From positions 1-48,769 of the forward strand of contig JABDGA010000008.1 in NCBI GenBank assembly GCA_013286285.1: DNA of 48,769 nucleotides, read 5' to 3'. This stretch comes from Alphaproteobacteria bacterium. GTDB taxonomy: Bacteria > Pseudomonadota > Alphaproteobacteria > Rickettsiales > JABCZZ01. This document shows positions 8,213-45,735 of the stretch, piece by piece (positions within the stretch are counted from its first letter, which is position 1; every line of letters starts with the position of its first letter). The position numbers and the translations under genes were made by a program. The notes beneath the pieces are model-generated. The model saw only the letters and a list, made by a program, of their open reading frames with translations, did no database searches and had not been told where the DNA came from.

Positions 8213-8836
8213 ATGCTATATTCCTCTCAGAAACCAGCAGTCCAACGTCAGGAAGCCGGCCAAAAACGCGGCGCAGCAGGGAAAATGCTTATCCTATCCA
8301 CCTCTCTTGCTTTCGGATTACTGGTCTCTTCAGGATTGACCAACGCCACACAGGCGCAAACTGCAACCTCCGCTCCCCCTTTATTAGGACTATTGACACA
8401 GATACTACAAATCGACCAACAAATCCTGCAGCTTGAGTTACAGCTCCTGCAGGCTGCTGGTACGCCAACGCCGACACCAACCCCGACTGTAACCGCAACG
8501 CCAACACCCACTGCAACTCCGACTCCGATGCCGACTCCAACCCCCACTCCTACCGCAACTCCGACTCCAACACCTACCGCAACGCCGACACCAACCCCGA
8601 CTTCTTCAACCGGTTTGCAGGGAACTTTGACTGAACTGGCTCAAATAGAGGCACAGATTACGCAAATATTACAGCAGGTCGAGACAGAATTAGGCAATGG
8701 CGGTACTGCCACCACCACCTCTACGGCTACAACTACGACAACCACGACTAATACTGGAACAACATCACCTACCAGTTCGGCATTTGGCGCATTGCGGGTA
8801 CCACATTGCACCGGAGAATTTAATTGCGGACACTGA
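8213..8836 (+). CDS. Secreted Pro/Thr-repeat coiled-coil protein, paralogue A
   Basis: Signal-like segment; [28 protein letters not shown] array; [23 protein letters not shown]-terminus CTGEFNCGH. Confidence 0.65.
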
Positions 8837-9027: not shown

Positions 9028-9759
9028 ATGTCTAATCGCACCTATCTCAGAACATTATTGTGGACCGTGCCATGCATCATTTCGCTTTTTGCAAGTGATA
9101 TAGCAGTCTCAGATACAGTGGTACCGCCTCCCAATGCTACTTCCATCTCAAGAGATAAAAATGATTTCAGTTTTAAATCGGATAAGCATCATAAAACAGT
9201 CCCCCATTGCCATCCCAAGCCCACCCCGACTACGGCACCAACCTCAACTACAGGCGGTGGCGGAGGAGGAGGTAGTGGTGGACCGACCACTGGCGATGGT
9301 AACTTGCAGCAAATATTGCAGGAGTTACTACAAGTCCAGACACAGATTGAACAAATATTACAGATATTACAGCAGATCCAAGGAGGTACTGGCATCACAA
9401 CGACTCCGACAGCGACTCCTACACCAAGCACAAGCACTACTCCTACCCCGACACCAAGTACAAGTATTACTCCTACCCCAACGCCGAGCACCAGTGCTAC
9501 TCCAACTCCAAGCCCAACTCCATCGCCCTCAATAACCCCAACATCAACTACCGGAACCGGCACTGCAGTTGCAGCACCCACTACCACTCCGACTCCTACC
9601 CCAACGACTCCCTCTGCCTCCTCTGGCAGCTCATCTTCCGGAGGTACGACTGCCGTCCCCACTCCGACTCCTCCCCCGACGCTTTGCGTATTGCTGGGTT
9701 GTAAAGCCAAGCCACAGTATGAATGCGTAGGAGAGTTTAACTGTCCTCCCCCCCAATAG
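9028..9759 (+). CDS. Secreted Pro/Thr-repeat coiled-coil protein, paralogue B
   Basis: Signal-like segment; Gly-rich stretch; LQQILQELLQVQTQIEQILQILQQIQ; TPTPSTST array; C-terminus ECVGEFNCPPPQ. Confidence 0.65.
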   Translation: MSNRTYLRTLLWTVPCIISLFASDIAVSDTVVPPPNATSISRDKNDFSFKSDKHHKTVPHCHPKPTPTTAPTSTTGGGGGGGSGGPTTGDGNLQQILQELLQVQTQIEQILQILQQIQGGTGITTTPTATPTPSTSTTPTPTPSTSITPTPTPSTSATPTPSPTPSPSITPTSTTGTGTAVAAPTTTPTPTPTTPSASSGSSSSGGTTAVPTPTPPPTLCVLLGCKAKPQYECVGEFNCPPPQ

Positions 9760-31026: not shown

Positions 31027-33939
31027 CCCCACTCTTTCACCCGCGCCAGATGCGCATAGTCATTATACCGCCCGCTATAGGCCGGAACCGGCATCGCGCG
31101 ATAAGGAAAATCCGGGTTATTGTATTTTTGAATCAAGGTTTCCAGTCCCTGTCTCGCCGTCTTTATCAGATCAACAATTTTTTCAGGAGGAATCTTTTTA
31201 ATCCTCCCTCCCTCTCCCCCCCCCCTGCAATTGCCAGTATTCAAGAGAGGCTATTTTTATGGGAGGAACGCTGCCCCCGCTTTCACTCCGCGAAACCTCC
31301 CCTGCAGGATCGTCGGCTATACCTTCTCCGCATCTTCTCGCACCTTGCTGTAATTCTTGCATAATCACCGCCAGCAGCAGCAACTGGCTTGCAAGCCCGT
31401 TCTCTATATCCATAGTAGTTGGCAGCGCCCCGGTTTTATAATCAATAATCGCCAGGATTCCGTCTTTATACTCCTCTATACGATCGGCGCGGCCTTTAAG
31501 GGTGAAGTTTCCAAACGCGCATTTTCCGTCCACTTCCGTGGCAATCTGCTGGATCGCCGGACGCCGTCCACGTTCGCACTGGAGAATGAATTCAGCTATC
31601 TGCACGAAACGCGGCCACCACAACGCCCGCACGCGATCATTCTGCAACAACGCCTGCAACGCCTCCTGTCCGTATTGCAGCAATGTTTCGTAAGGCTTAT
31701 CCGGCAGGACGGAGGGGTAGGCACGGACAAACGCCTCAAGCGCCTTATGCGCCGAAGTGCCGAAATCCGCTCCATTCAATTCGCGCATCATGGGATCCAG
31801 CGGATATAAATCCAGAATCAGCGCTGCATACAGCGCATACGGATTCCTAAGCCACGTCTCCACCTGCGTCACGGATATCGTCATGGGTCTTGCGGCAAGC
31901 GGCGGTTTGGGCACGGGCGCAGCCACCGGAACGACTTTAGCAGGAAAATCGAGAAGCCTGACCCTCTCACACCACGCATTATCTTCTATCAGGGACTGGG
32001 CGAAGAATTTGGCAAGCAGCACATCCAGCTTCAGCAACCAGCGTGATGGCGTGGTTTTCGTTCCGCCCGTTTTCTCCGCACGCGTAAGATAGACTTCCGG
32101 AGCGCTCGCCAACATGAAGAAGTCATGTGCAGCAAGGCCGATGCTTCGCTCCGGCGCGGGCAGGCCAATCCCGGCGCGCATGGGACGATTGAGCCAAGGA
32201 TCGGCAGTGATGTCTGGCGGCCAGCTTCCTTCATTGAGCCCACCCAGTATAATCCGGTCACAGGATTGCATCCTCGCTTCCATCGCCCCCAAAATCTTCA
32301 GACGTGGATGGTTCCCATACTCAGGACGGAACACCTGGCCTGCCAGCAAGGTGTCGAAGATCTCCGGATAGCTTGGAGTTGCAGGTTGCAGGTTGCAAGT
32401 TGCAAGTTGAATCTCGGCCAGCAATTTAGAAATAGTCTCTGCCTCAGGGCCATCCCATAGCCCATCTCCTGCAAGGGCTTCCGCACATTGCAGGTGAGCG
32501 GCGACGAGAGGTTGAAGGTTGCAAGTTGCAGATTGCAGATTAGCAATGAATGGGGAAAATGCTTTCTCAATATTTTGCATTAATTGCTTCACCCCATCCG
32601 AAACACCACTTGCAACTTGCAACTTGCAACCTGCAACCGACTTGCGCAATACCAGCAGCTCATATTCCCGCGCCGCTTCCAGACACGCAATACGTTCCAT
32701 CCCCGACCTTGCAAGCGGATGCTTGAGCAGCGAGACCAGCTTTACCGCATCCATACCGCTTGCCGCGACTTCCGCCACCAGCCGCAGGAAGACGGCGATA
32801 GGGGTCTGCAGCAATGGCTGACCTGCCGAGTCATCAAGGGTGACGCCGAAGCGTTTCATGATGGCGCATACACGGCGGGCAAGCGCACGGTCATGGGTCA
32901 CAAGCGCCGCCGTTTTCCCCGGATGCTCGAGCGTCTCACGCAGCATCAGCGCTATGACGCCCGCCTCTTCCTGAATATCCGTGCAGATAATCCGTTTCAT
33001 TCCCTGCAAGGCCTTGGGCATATCCATATCCAACGCCTGCCAGCCCTCCAGCATTTCCGCCGGACGCATGATTTCAGAGAGCAACTTGACTCGCTCTTTG
33101 CAACCTGCAACCGGTAACCGGCAACGTATCTCCTGCGCCTCATCCACCTTCAGCCTGCGAAGCAACGTATGCATTCCCCATTGCGGGTGGCTTTCAGTAA
33201 TATTTTCTAAATATGCTTCTCCTGCCTGCGTATCAAAACCCGGCAAGACAATCATGCCCTGCGGCATGGCGGCAACGCTGGCGATGACGTCGGCGCTCGC
33301 CGGAATACTGCCGGTAGTCCCCGCCACTATCACCGGGTGTTCCGGCGGGGCATCACGCCAGCTTTTCGCCAGAGCGACGAGTATCTGATTACGGTAACTG
33401 GCACCGCTCACCATATTTTCTTCCTTCGCGATCTGCGGCCAGTATTCCGAGATGATTTTCAGAAATTCTACCGTTATCTGCCAGTGACTGGCAAAATCCT
33501 CCGGCACCAGGCGAATAAGATCCTTTAACGCAACCTGCTCGCGCTCCAGCTCATCAAACAGCCGCGCCAGCTCCTGCGCCAGACGCAGCGCATGATCCAT
33601 ACGGGAATGGTTATGGCGTTGAATAAGCTGTGCGATGATGAACAGACGTTTAAAATCGAATTGCTCCGCAGAAGGAGGGGCAAGATCCAGGTTACGGGTT
33701 GCCAGAAGCATCCCTTCATCGACATCGCCAATAGGTTGCAGGCGCGGCAATAATAAAGCCTTGCCGCCACTTGCACGTAGAAACGCATCGCGCAGGGCAA
33801 TGCAGGCACGGCGGGTGGGAAGCAGCATCAAGACGCGTGATAATCCGGTAGGCGTAGCATCACACTTCTCCAGCACCCATTGTGCCAACGTATCGGTAAA
33901 AGGAGAATCGGCAGGAATGGTATAGATGTTGTTGGGCAT
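31023..33939 (-). CDS. addB: Double-strand break repair protein AddB; C-terminus displaced by a frameshift in a G10 tract
   Basis: VLMLLPTRRACIALRDAFL; nuclease motif GILAIIDYKTGALPT; last part (ORF 31023-31244) ends RYNDYAHLARVKEWG, as expected for AddB. Confidence 0.85.
32378..32409 (+). repeat. 7-bp tandem repeat array in addB (GTTGCAG/GTTGCAA, 4 units)
   Basis: gttgcag gttgcag gttgcaa gttgcaa gttg. Confidence 0.85.
32511..32538 (+). repeat. 7-bp tandem repeat array in addB (4 units)
   Basis: gttgaag gttgcaa gttgcag attgcag. Confidence 0.8.
32608..32637 (-). repeat. 7-bp tandem repeat array in addB, opposite orientation (4 units)
   Basis: acttgca acttgca acttgca acctgca. Confidence 0.85.
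33098..33125 (-). repeat. 7-bp tandem repeat array in addB, opposite orientation (4 units)
   Basis: ttgcaac ctgcaac cggtaac cggcaac. Confidence 0.75.
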
Positions 33940-42649: not shown

Positions 42650-43042
42650 ATGAACAGCTTACAGAAACTCGAACAGGAATACACCGCAAAGCTTGCTGAA
42701 GGAAAAACGTTTGATTTTGCCCCCGGCGATACCGTATGCGTCAATGTAAAGATTATCGAAGGTGAAAATGAGCGTATCCAGGCGTTTGAAGGCGTCTGCA
42801 TTGCCCGCAGGAATGCCGGGCTCAACTCATCTTTCACCGTCCGTAAAATCAGCCATGGCGAAGGTGTGGAGCGTATTTTTCCCCTCTATTCCCCGCGTGT
42901 GGACAGCGTAACGCTGGTGCGCCGCGGCAAAGTCCGCCGTGCCAAGCTGTATTACCTGCGCGGCCTGACCGGCAAGGCAGCGCGTATTAAGGAAAAAAAG
43001 CGTGAGTTGGTTGAAACCACTGATGCTGCTTCCAGACAATAA
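42650..43042 (+). CDS. rplS: 50S ribosomal protein L19
   Basis: [91 protein letters not shown]. Confidence 0.98.
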
Positions 43043-43046
43043 ATTC

Positions 43047-43118
43047 AGGTTCTAGTTTCTTGGTGCTAGGTTCTAGAGTCTGTAAAATCCAGCACCTAGA
43101 ACCAAGTAGCTAGAACTC
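43047..43118. repeat. Facing 7-bp repeats (GGTTCTA/GGTGCTA type) between rplS and leuC
   Basis: aggttcta gtttctt ggtgcta ggttcta ... gcaccta gaaccaa gtagcta gaactcc. Confidence 0.8.
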
Positions 43119-43121
43119 CCT

Positions 43122-44522
43122 ATGAAGACCCTTTACGATAAAATTTTTGATGCGCATGCGGTGCATACGTCACCTGACGGTACTGCTATTCTTTACATAG
43201 ATCGCCATCTGATTCATGAAGTTACCAGCCCGCAGGCATTTGAAGGTTTGCGCTCCGCAGGCCGCAAGGTACGCCGCCCGGATGCAACCTTTGCCGTTGC
43301 AGATCATAATGTACCTACCACCCCGGATCGCAAGGAAGGCATTAAGGATAAAACCGCGCGGATCCAGGTACAGACGCTGGAAGATAACTGCAGGGAAGCG
43401 GGCATTACCTATTTCCGCATGGACGACAAACGTCAGGGAATCGTCCATATCGTTGGCCCCGAACAAGGCCTGACCCATCCAGGCATGACCATCGTCTGCG
43501 GTGATTCACATACCGCGACCCACGGCGCGTTCGGCGCGCTGGCGTTCGGCATTGGCACTAGTGAAGTTGAGCATGTGCTGGCGACCCAGACTCTGATCCA
43601 GAAGCGCGCCAAGAACATGCTGGTACGGGTAGACGGCACGCTCGGCCTGGGCGTCACGGCGAAAGATGTGGTGCTTGCCATTATCGGCAAAATCGGCACC
43701 GCTGGCGGAACTGGCTACGTGATTGAATATGCAGGAGACGTTATCAGGGGGCTTTCCATGGAAGGCCGCATGACTGTCTGCAATATGTCCATCGAAGCAG
43801 GCGCACGCGCCGGGCTTATCGCACCCGATGAGACGACTTTTGCCTATATCAAGGGACGCCCGCATGCGCCGCAGGGAGCGGATTGGGATAAGGCCGTCGC
43901 GTATTGGAAAACGCTGGTTTCCGATGCAGGTGCAAAATACGATGCGGTAATCACGCTTAACGCGAATGAAATTGAGCCGCAAGTCACATGGGGAACCAGC
44001 CCGCAAGACGTACTGCCGATTTCCGGCTCCGTACCCGACCCGCAAGCGGAAAAGGACGAAAGCCGCCGCAGGAGCATGGAACGGGCGCTGGAATATATGG
44101 GCCTCTCTGCGGGCACCAAGCTTACCGACGTGCCGATTGACAAAGTGTTCATCGGCTCCTGCACCAATGGCCGTATAGAGGATTTCCGTGAAGCGGCAAA
44201 AATCGCCAAAGGCAGGAAGATTGCGAAGAACGTCATGCTCGCCATGATCGTTCCCGGATCGGGGCTGGTCAAAGAACAGGCGGAAAAAGAAGGGCTGGAC
44301 AAGATCTTCATCGAGGCCGGGTTTGAATGGTGCGAACCGGGCTGCTCCATGTGCCTCGCCATGAACGCTGATAAGCTCTCCCCTGGCGAGCGCTGCGCCT
44401 CCACTTCCAATCGTAACTTTGAAGGCCGGCAAGGCCGCGGCGGCAGGACACACCTGATGAGCCCCGCTATGGCAGTAGCTGCGGCGGTTACAGGAAAACT
44501 TTCGGATGTAAGGAAAATATAG
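43122..44522 (+). CDS. leuC: 3-isopropylmalate dehydratase large subunit
   Basis: [70 protein letters not shown]. Confidence 0.97.
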
Positions 44523-44574
44523 GAGAAGGTTAATCCCGCACAGGCGGAAATCTCTTTTGCCAGGTGAGTAAATT

Positions 44575-44871
44575 ATGAAAGAGAGTTTTTATATTTATAT
44601 CCTTGCGAGCAGACCAAATGGCGCAATTTACATTGGTGTGACATCAGATTTGATTAAGAGAGTTTACCAACACAAAAATGAAGTTACCAAAGGCCATTCA
44701 AGTAAATATAATATAAAGCAACTGGTATATTATGAAATATACGATAGCGCAGAAGAAGCGATATTAAGAGAAAAACGACTAAAGAAATGGACAAGGGCTA
44801 TGAAGAACGATTTGATAAGCAGAATTAACCCGATATGGGAAGATTTATATTTACAACTGGCAACTGCTTGA
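44575..44871 (+). CDS. GIY-YIG nuclease superfamily protein
   Basis: FYIYILASRPNGAIYIGVTSDLIKRVYQHK; EAILREKRLKKWTRAMKNDLISRINPIWEDLY. Confidence 0.9.
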   Translation: MKESFYIYILASRPNGAIYIGVTSDLIKRVYQHKNEVTKGHSSKYNIKQLVYYEIYDSAEEAILREKRLKKWTRAMKNDLISRINPIWEDLYLQLATA

Positions 44872-44880
44872 GAGGCTTTC

Positions 44881-44960
44881 GTCATTCCTGCGAAGGCAGG
44901 AATCCCTGTAGCAAGTTTTCAGGCTTTAGATAAAGAGATTCCCGCCTACGCGGGAATGAC
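44881..44960. repeat. GTCATTCC...GGAATGAC double-hairpin repeat between the GIY-YIG gene and leuD
   Basis: gtcattcctgcgaaggcaggaatcc ... gattcccgcctacgcgggaatgac. Confidence 0.8.
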
Positions 44961-45056
44961 GGTGGAGAGGATGATGGATTGAGAAGCAACTATTAAGCCA
45001 AGCAATAAGAACTCTAAAAATAAAGATTAAGGAATAGACAATAGAAAGATAAGCTG

Positions 45057-45692
45057 ATGCAAAAATTCACCACCCTCACCGCCATCGCCGCGCCTTTGCC
45101 GATTGAAAATGTGGACACGGATATGATCATTCCCAAGCAGTTTTTGACCACCATCAAGCGCACGGGACTTAAGGAAGGGTTGTTTTACGAGATGCGCTAT
45201 GATGTGAACGGCAAACGCAATGACGGTTTCGTGCTACACCGCGAGCCCTATACCCATGCGGAAATACTGGTGGCGCGGGATAATTTCGGCTGCGGCTCCT
45301 CACGCGAGCATGCTCCCTGGGCGCTGCTGGATTTCGGCATACGCTGCATTATCGCGCCGTCCTTCGCCGACATATTCTACAATAACTGCTTCAAGAACGG
45401 CGTGCTGCCGGTCGTGCTTCCCAAGGATGCGGTGGAGAAGCTGCTGCAGACTGCCGAATCCGGCCAGAAAATCAGCGTGGATCTCATGGAACAGAACGTC
45501 ACCGCAGGTAATCACGCATTTTCATTCGATATCGATCCATTCCGCAAGCACTGCCTGCTTAACGGACTGGACGATATCGGCCTTACGATGGAGAAACTTA
45601 AGGATATTGACAGTTTCGAGCAAAAACAGAAATCCGTTACCCCCTGGCTATATACGAGTGGCGAGTGGCAAGTAGCAAGTGGTCAGTTATAA
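45057..45692 (+). CDS. leuD: 3-isopropylmalate dehydratase small subunit
   Basis: [71 protein letters not shown]. Confidence 0.97.
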
Positions 45693-45735
45693 TGTATTTC
45701 TACTTGTCACTAGCCACTTAATCACTTGTCACTAA
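45655..45735. repeat. Facing 7-bp repeats overlapping the leuD stop codon
   Basis: gagtggc gagtggc aagtagc aagtggt cagttat ... acttgtc actagcc acttaatc acttgtc act. Confidence 0.75.

Follow-up and report, generated by a model that had tools for sequence, protein, structure and literature searches.

Facing heptanucleotide arrays between rplS and leuC of an alphaproteobacterium: a known kind of repeat in many units

According to earlier work cited in PMC4679880, heptanucleotide repeats are the most frequent class among the long repeats of most prokaryotic genomes. The long heptanucleotide repeats of Mrazek et al. (2007) resemble the arrays described here in the over-representation of period 7, and slippage was proposed for them; the parts of that work accessible through PMC4692102 and PMC4679880 contain no rule of layout or orientation. 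Polymerase slippage has been proposed for the heptamer excess in both of these later papers (PMC4692102, PMC4679880). A study by Rehm et al. (2015; PMC4692102) described the GGGAATC heptads of Xanthomonas, which have one fixed unit, form 70-75 convergent pairs per genome and take the same seat against genes as the present arrays. The Xanthomonas GGGAATC and Nostoc GGGGA(C/T)T repeats share with the present class a 7-nt unit with variable positions, mostly about four units per array, a mainly intergenic location and convergent pairs in which the G strand leaves the nearest gene into the gap (PMC4692102). TAACTGA heptads, known from Beggiatoaceae, cyanobacteria and Bacteroidetes (MacGregor 2015; PMC4679880), likewise occupy gaps immediately before start codons and are scattered over phyla, but they are direct repeats of a single unit with one inverted case only. 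Rickettsia palindromic elements, REP and MITE sequences are also intergenic or in-gene palindromes; they have a conserved sequence and are inserted as a block, whereas the arrays below have no conserved sequence and do not appear to be inserted in this way. Heptad repeats have so far been treated as separate species-specific curiosities, such as GGGAATC and TAACTGA.

The locus studied here lies in a 48,769-nt stretch of DNA, the window, from an alphaproteobacterium of the Rickettsiales (contig JABDGA010000008.1; assembly of 1.45 Mb in 77 contigs, 53% complete). Upstream is rplS, encoding ribosomal protein L19 (42650-43042, plus strand; Pfam PF01245, E 4.8e-47; start codon inferred), and downstream is leuC (43122-44522, plus strand; Pfam PF00330; 78-90% identity to orthologues). 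The 79-nt gap between them is almost entirely taken up by a hairpin, whose two arms are arrays of 7-nt units facing each other. The 5' arm (43048-43077, plus strand) reads as the G/T-rich heptads AGGTTCT, AGTTTCT, TGGTGCT and AGGTTCT followed by AG. After a loop at 43078-43087 (the AGTCTGTAAA region), the 3' arm (43088-43117) reads on the minus strand as GAGTTCT, AGCTACT, TGGTTCT and AGGTGCT. The units are thus degenerate, of AGGTTCT/TGGTGCT type. The base of the stem is 5 nt past the rplS stop codon (43040-43042) and its end is 4 nt upstream of the leuC ATG.

In the window, Tandem Repeats Finder reported period 7 with the unit AGGTTCT at 43047-43076. An inverted-repeat search paired 43049-43077 with 43088-43116, arms of 29 nt that are 83% complementary and 10 nt apart. 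The segment 43040-43122 folds at -32.4 kcal/mol, compared with -16.3 +/- 2.7 for 200 dinucleotide shuffles (z about -6), none of which folded as well. Re-reading, repeat search and folding therefore agree with the facing heptads that a sequence-only reading had placed at 43047-43118; its spacer of about 16 nt is right if counted between whole units, and the inverted repeat reduces it to about 10 nt. The leuC start has no obvious Shine-Dalgarno sequence. A terminator scan found no intrinsic terminator (stem then T run) in the gap, and no Rfam family scored above its gathering threshold there, the only Rfam matches in the window being two tRNAs.

This locus belongs to the known heptad-repeat kind. 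It has the tandem 7-nt unit, with period 7 above others, of a heptanucleotide simple sequence repeat, and the convergent pairs and gene-leaving G strand of the Xanthomonas type. It differs in the unit. Xanthomonas and Nostoc have one G-quadruplex-forming unit per species (PMC4692102), whereas here there are many units per genome and most have no G runs. Within this genome, AGGTKCT, AGTTGCA, AGTGGCA, AGGTTTC and GGGAATA occur, AGGTTCT, AGTTGCA and other units of its arrays have no GGG run, and no unit of GGGNATC type was seen at the focal locus. A genome search with the focal hairpin found facing AGGTKCT-type arrays on six further contigs (C30, C12, C22, C70, C28 and C21), and sampled stretches added AGGTTTC, GGTTGCC, GGGAATA and AATCTGG. 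The density of array pairs in G000 is about one per 50-70 kb.

The period is not due to chance. The statistics rest on sampled stretches of this genome and of relatives in its order, about 1.55 Mb in all; hairpins were listed at 15 or more of 20 pairs, and lags 4-13 were compared. Period 7 was present in both arms of 19 hairpins, with at least ten different units, and none of the other periods compared in more than two. The focal arm is degenerate and was missed by this strict detector. In a species-representative collection, the listed matches to three copies of AGGTKCT include genomes of Gammaproteobacteria, Bacteroidota, Chloroflexota, Planctomycetota, Patescibacteria type and others. Among the matches listed, 119 loci of many phyla held 37 period-7 hairpins near the query arrays, a number biased by the search, and 13 away from them, which are less so; other periods reached seven at most. 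Period-7 palindromes thus exceed chance in the genome, the order and the 119 loci, and a class held together by period and facing layout, not by sequence, as the sequence-only reading supposed, does exist in the order sample and the 119 loci.

The direction of the arrays is constant. It was scored by G versus C, independently of complementarity, for neighbours within 120 nt. In the order, the G strands point at each other in 11 pairs of neighbouring arrays and away from each other in none; among the matches listed from diverse loci, 26 such pairs are convergent, nine divergent and 18 tandem. The seat against genes follows the same rule. For 30 of 33 intergenic arrays in the order, the nearer gene lies behind the G strand (median distance 4 nt to the gene behind and 57 nt to the one ahead), and among the matches listed from diverse loci it lies behind in 112 and ahead in 55. 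Individual array-gene distances are approximate, as gene calling relied on a simple longest-ORF rule. Stop and start sides follow this rule of seating alike, with 13 and 14 cases within 20 nt, which makes a translation signal an unlikely origin of the polarity.

The two arms of a pair are related more loosely. Units can differ between them. Were the arms inverted copies, rare unit variants would be mirrored; an exact-unit test of this order gave 16 where 15.2 were expected (p 0.38). At the nucleotide level, arm pairing exceeded that of arms with permuted unit order (p 0.005), and folding energy was below that of permuted-unit arms for 17 of the 23 pairs (p 0.0024), with arm boundaries set by eye for both tests. 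Taken together, the three tests indicate that the shared unit gives most of the complementarity, with a modest true mirror signal that is strongest in G002 and G044. The symmetry or palindrome ascribed to these arrays from sequence alone therefore stands as a constant direction, with only weak mirroring of unit order. The idea that the arms are exact inverted copies gains no support from the exact-unit test and weak support from the other two.

Related genomes carry such hairpins at the same site, a check that had been proposed with the original reading. At least four relatives have heptad hairpins of other units in the rplS-leuC gap, and a fifth has a hairpin of decayed period. The units are of AGGTTTC type in G001, AGG-anchored and degenerate in G003, GGTTCTA/GGGGCTA in G023, GTTATCA/GTTGCCG in G044 and, placed after a terminator, TTTCAGG/TGTCAGG in G049. 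In G002 the hairpin is strong (z -5.6, arm pairing 87%) and lag-7 identity is at the background of 0.25. In other relatives the gap contains either an ordinary terminator or no such structure. Heptad-bearing gaps are mostly 74-82 nt. The six rplS-gap sequences of this and five other species cannot be aligned by unit; five have folding energies far below those of shuffled sequence (z -3.1 to -7.0) and the sixth, of G023, has z -2.0. In six species the stem takes up the whole gap, beginning no more than 9 nt past the rplS stop codon and ending no more than about 6 nt short of leuC. Upstream of gatC, the gap of G000 contains heptads that face each other, that of G001 a heptad remnant on one side and that of G025 a related array of 6/7-nt units. 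Since arrays recur in the rplS-leuC and gatC gaps of relatives, array sites are shared beyond the expectation from density, with different units. Upstream of gatC, locus L253 has a facing array of alternating 6- and 7-nt units (AGTGCT/AGTGGCT/AGTTGCT).

Turnover is clearest in Shewanella and Pseudoalteromonas. One Shewanella site lies after a stop codon and ahead of the associated terminator; between closely similar flanks it holds AGGTGCT in seven copies in one genome and AGGTTCT in 13 and 17 copies in two others. A fourth genome has a unit of 8 nt, and no array is present in the others. The 8-nt unit, AGGGTGCT in nine copies (locus L308 of the Shewanella-type genome G066), shows that the period itself can change. 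Arrays add length at this site. At a Pseudoalteromonas site with left flanks 98-99% identical, the unit is GAGTTGC or AGCTATC, the latter in two to 11 or more copies and, where the flanks are the same, in two against 11. A more distant flank comes with the unit AAAGGTG. Both sites behave like slippage arrays, in which unit number varies between close relatives and a site swaps its unit yet remains an array. A genome-wide exclusive choice of one unit was rejected, as AGGTTCT and AGGTGCT coexist in most Shewanella and Pseudoalteromonas genomes. The reversed-pattern control for these two units gave no array in any Shewanella or Pseudoalteromonas genome searched. Another Shewanella-type locus, L291, has at around 1830-1900 a 14-nt unit, AAAAGCTTAGGTTA, that is twice seven.

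Within the window, four arrays of about 30-40 nt each lie inside addB: AGTTGCA/GGTTGCA at 32377-32410 (plus strand), GGTTGCA at 32509-32541 (plus) facing 32603-32642 (minus), and a weaker one at 33098-33126 (minus). The focal hairpin had been said to match them in layout; this is so for the one facing pair, only two of the four arrays pairing at hairpin distance. They overlie variable linkers of AddB. Compared with seven homologues, the lengths between conserved anchors are 35 amino acids against 31-39, 72 against 54-79 and 58 against 56-66. The four arrays give zero net gain in AddB length and are thus no simple insertions; the insertion element implied by the sequence-only reading is not borne out. 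Fill-in of a double-strand break between the arms is also unlikely in addB, as the intervening 73 nt align as AddB sequence.

What is new in comparison with the described systems is the indifference to unit, the single orientation rule across units, the presence of several units per genome and the replacement of units at conserved sites; a unit-independent description of the class was not found in the openly available literature searched. The novelty claimed for the focal hairpin holds for a unit-independent class, whereas the layout is not wholly new (Xanthomonas, PMC4692102; Beggiatoaceae, PMC4679880). If period, direction and gene seat define one class, a single mutational or enzymatic process across phyla must explain the 7-nt step and the polarity, and explanations bound to one unit, such as quadruplexes or one binding protein, cannot be general. 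Shewanella and Pseudoalteromonas are rich in perfect arrays, which makes the process testable in culture.

Quasipalindrome correction is an established part of bacterial biology. The reading placed first, which has about an even chance of being right, is that the focal feature represents old, decayed convergent heptanucleotide arrays, renewed by slippage and with arms kept roughly complementary through the hairpin. Replication slippage in 7-nt steps would create and renew the arrays, and a site may lose one unit type and regrow another. Rough complementarity would follow from the same unit type facing itself and from changes copied across the stem, by hairpin-dependent template switching (quasipalindrome correction) or through mild selection for the hairpin. 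Slippage with hairpin-mediated correction is ranked first on the strength of the observed copy-number steps and unit turnover, and of the established nature of the correction; slippage and template switching as the mechanism are inferred. Against it, simple slippage does not predict length-neutral addB arrays and accounts for neither the 11:0 polarity nor the gene-end seat. Two-copy exact duplications of 7 nt are also only slightly in excess, and part of this excess comes from the arrays. That the G-rich strand always runs into the loop is left unexplained.

The main rival, possible though rather doubtful, is a functional RNA hairpin of operon gaps, whose stem would loop the gap out or protect or end transcripts, with selection keeping the hairpin while the sequence drifts. 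In its favour, co-directional gaps hold 30 of the 33 arrays in the order, compared with their 57% share of all gaps of 30-300 nt. In six species the stem also shortens the distance from the rplS stop to the leuC start to about 10 nt or less, and it is kept in G002 despite the decayed period. However, period 7 is not explained in this way, many of the arrays elsewhere lie between convergent genes or are solitary, and those in addB are intragenic. The focal gap has neither a terminator nor an Rfam family, and that of other relatives has an ordinary terminator or no hairpin.

A mobile palindromic element of REP, MITE or Rickettsia-palindromic-element type, inserted whole by a transposase, is improbable and already largely refuted. 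The AGGTKCT unit is common to several loci of the genome, but no fixed core, end or target duplication was seen, sequence is not conserved across copies, units differ even between the arms of one pair, the orthologous gap is filled by different units and the addB arrays are not simple insertions. About as improbable is a putative trans-acting enzyme, a polymerase or reverse transcriptase moving in 7-nt steps, that would extend 3' ends with G/T-rich heptads and overwrite non-coding DNA outward from the centre; it would yield independent convergent arms of any unit with no net addB length, seated where selection halts them at gene ends. Chance, or ordinary protein or terminator sequence, is scarcely credible given the folding z, the enrichment of period and layout and the hairpins in the same gap of relatives, even though the focal arm is degenerate enough to escape the strict detector.

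Other repeats were recorded in the window. An AGTGGCA array (45653-45683, plus strand) overlaps the 3' end of leuD, and its facing arm (45697-45733, minus strand) ends before leuB. The heptad array at 45653-45692 codes for the final residues of LeuD, which is shorter at its end in relatives. The leuC-leuD spacing (44523-45056) is 534 nt, compared with about 5 nt in G001 and G002; the insert contains an ORF of 98 amino acids and the inverted repeat CGTCATTCCTGCGAAGGCAGGAATCCC (44880-44961), and that of G003 is different. The C-terminal stretch of AddB at 31201-31360 (residues about 861-896) resembles short segments that lie in frame at four more sites of the genome (C27, C37, C30 and C12) and in G001 and G002; it is a dispersed coding repeat, possibly akin to the Rickettsia palindromic elements. 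Tandem Repeats Finder also reported low-complexity ACT/CCC-rich repeats in ORFs at 8465-8602 and 9421-9511, with periods of 12 and 30, which are likely to be Thr/Pro-rich protein linkers.
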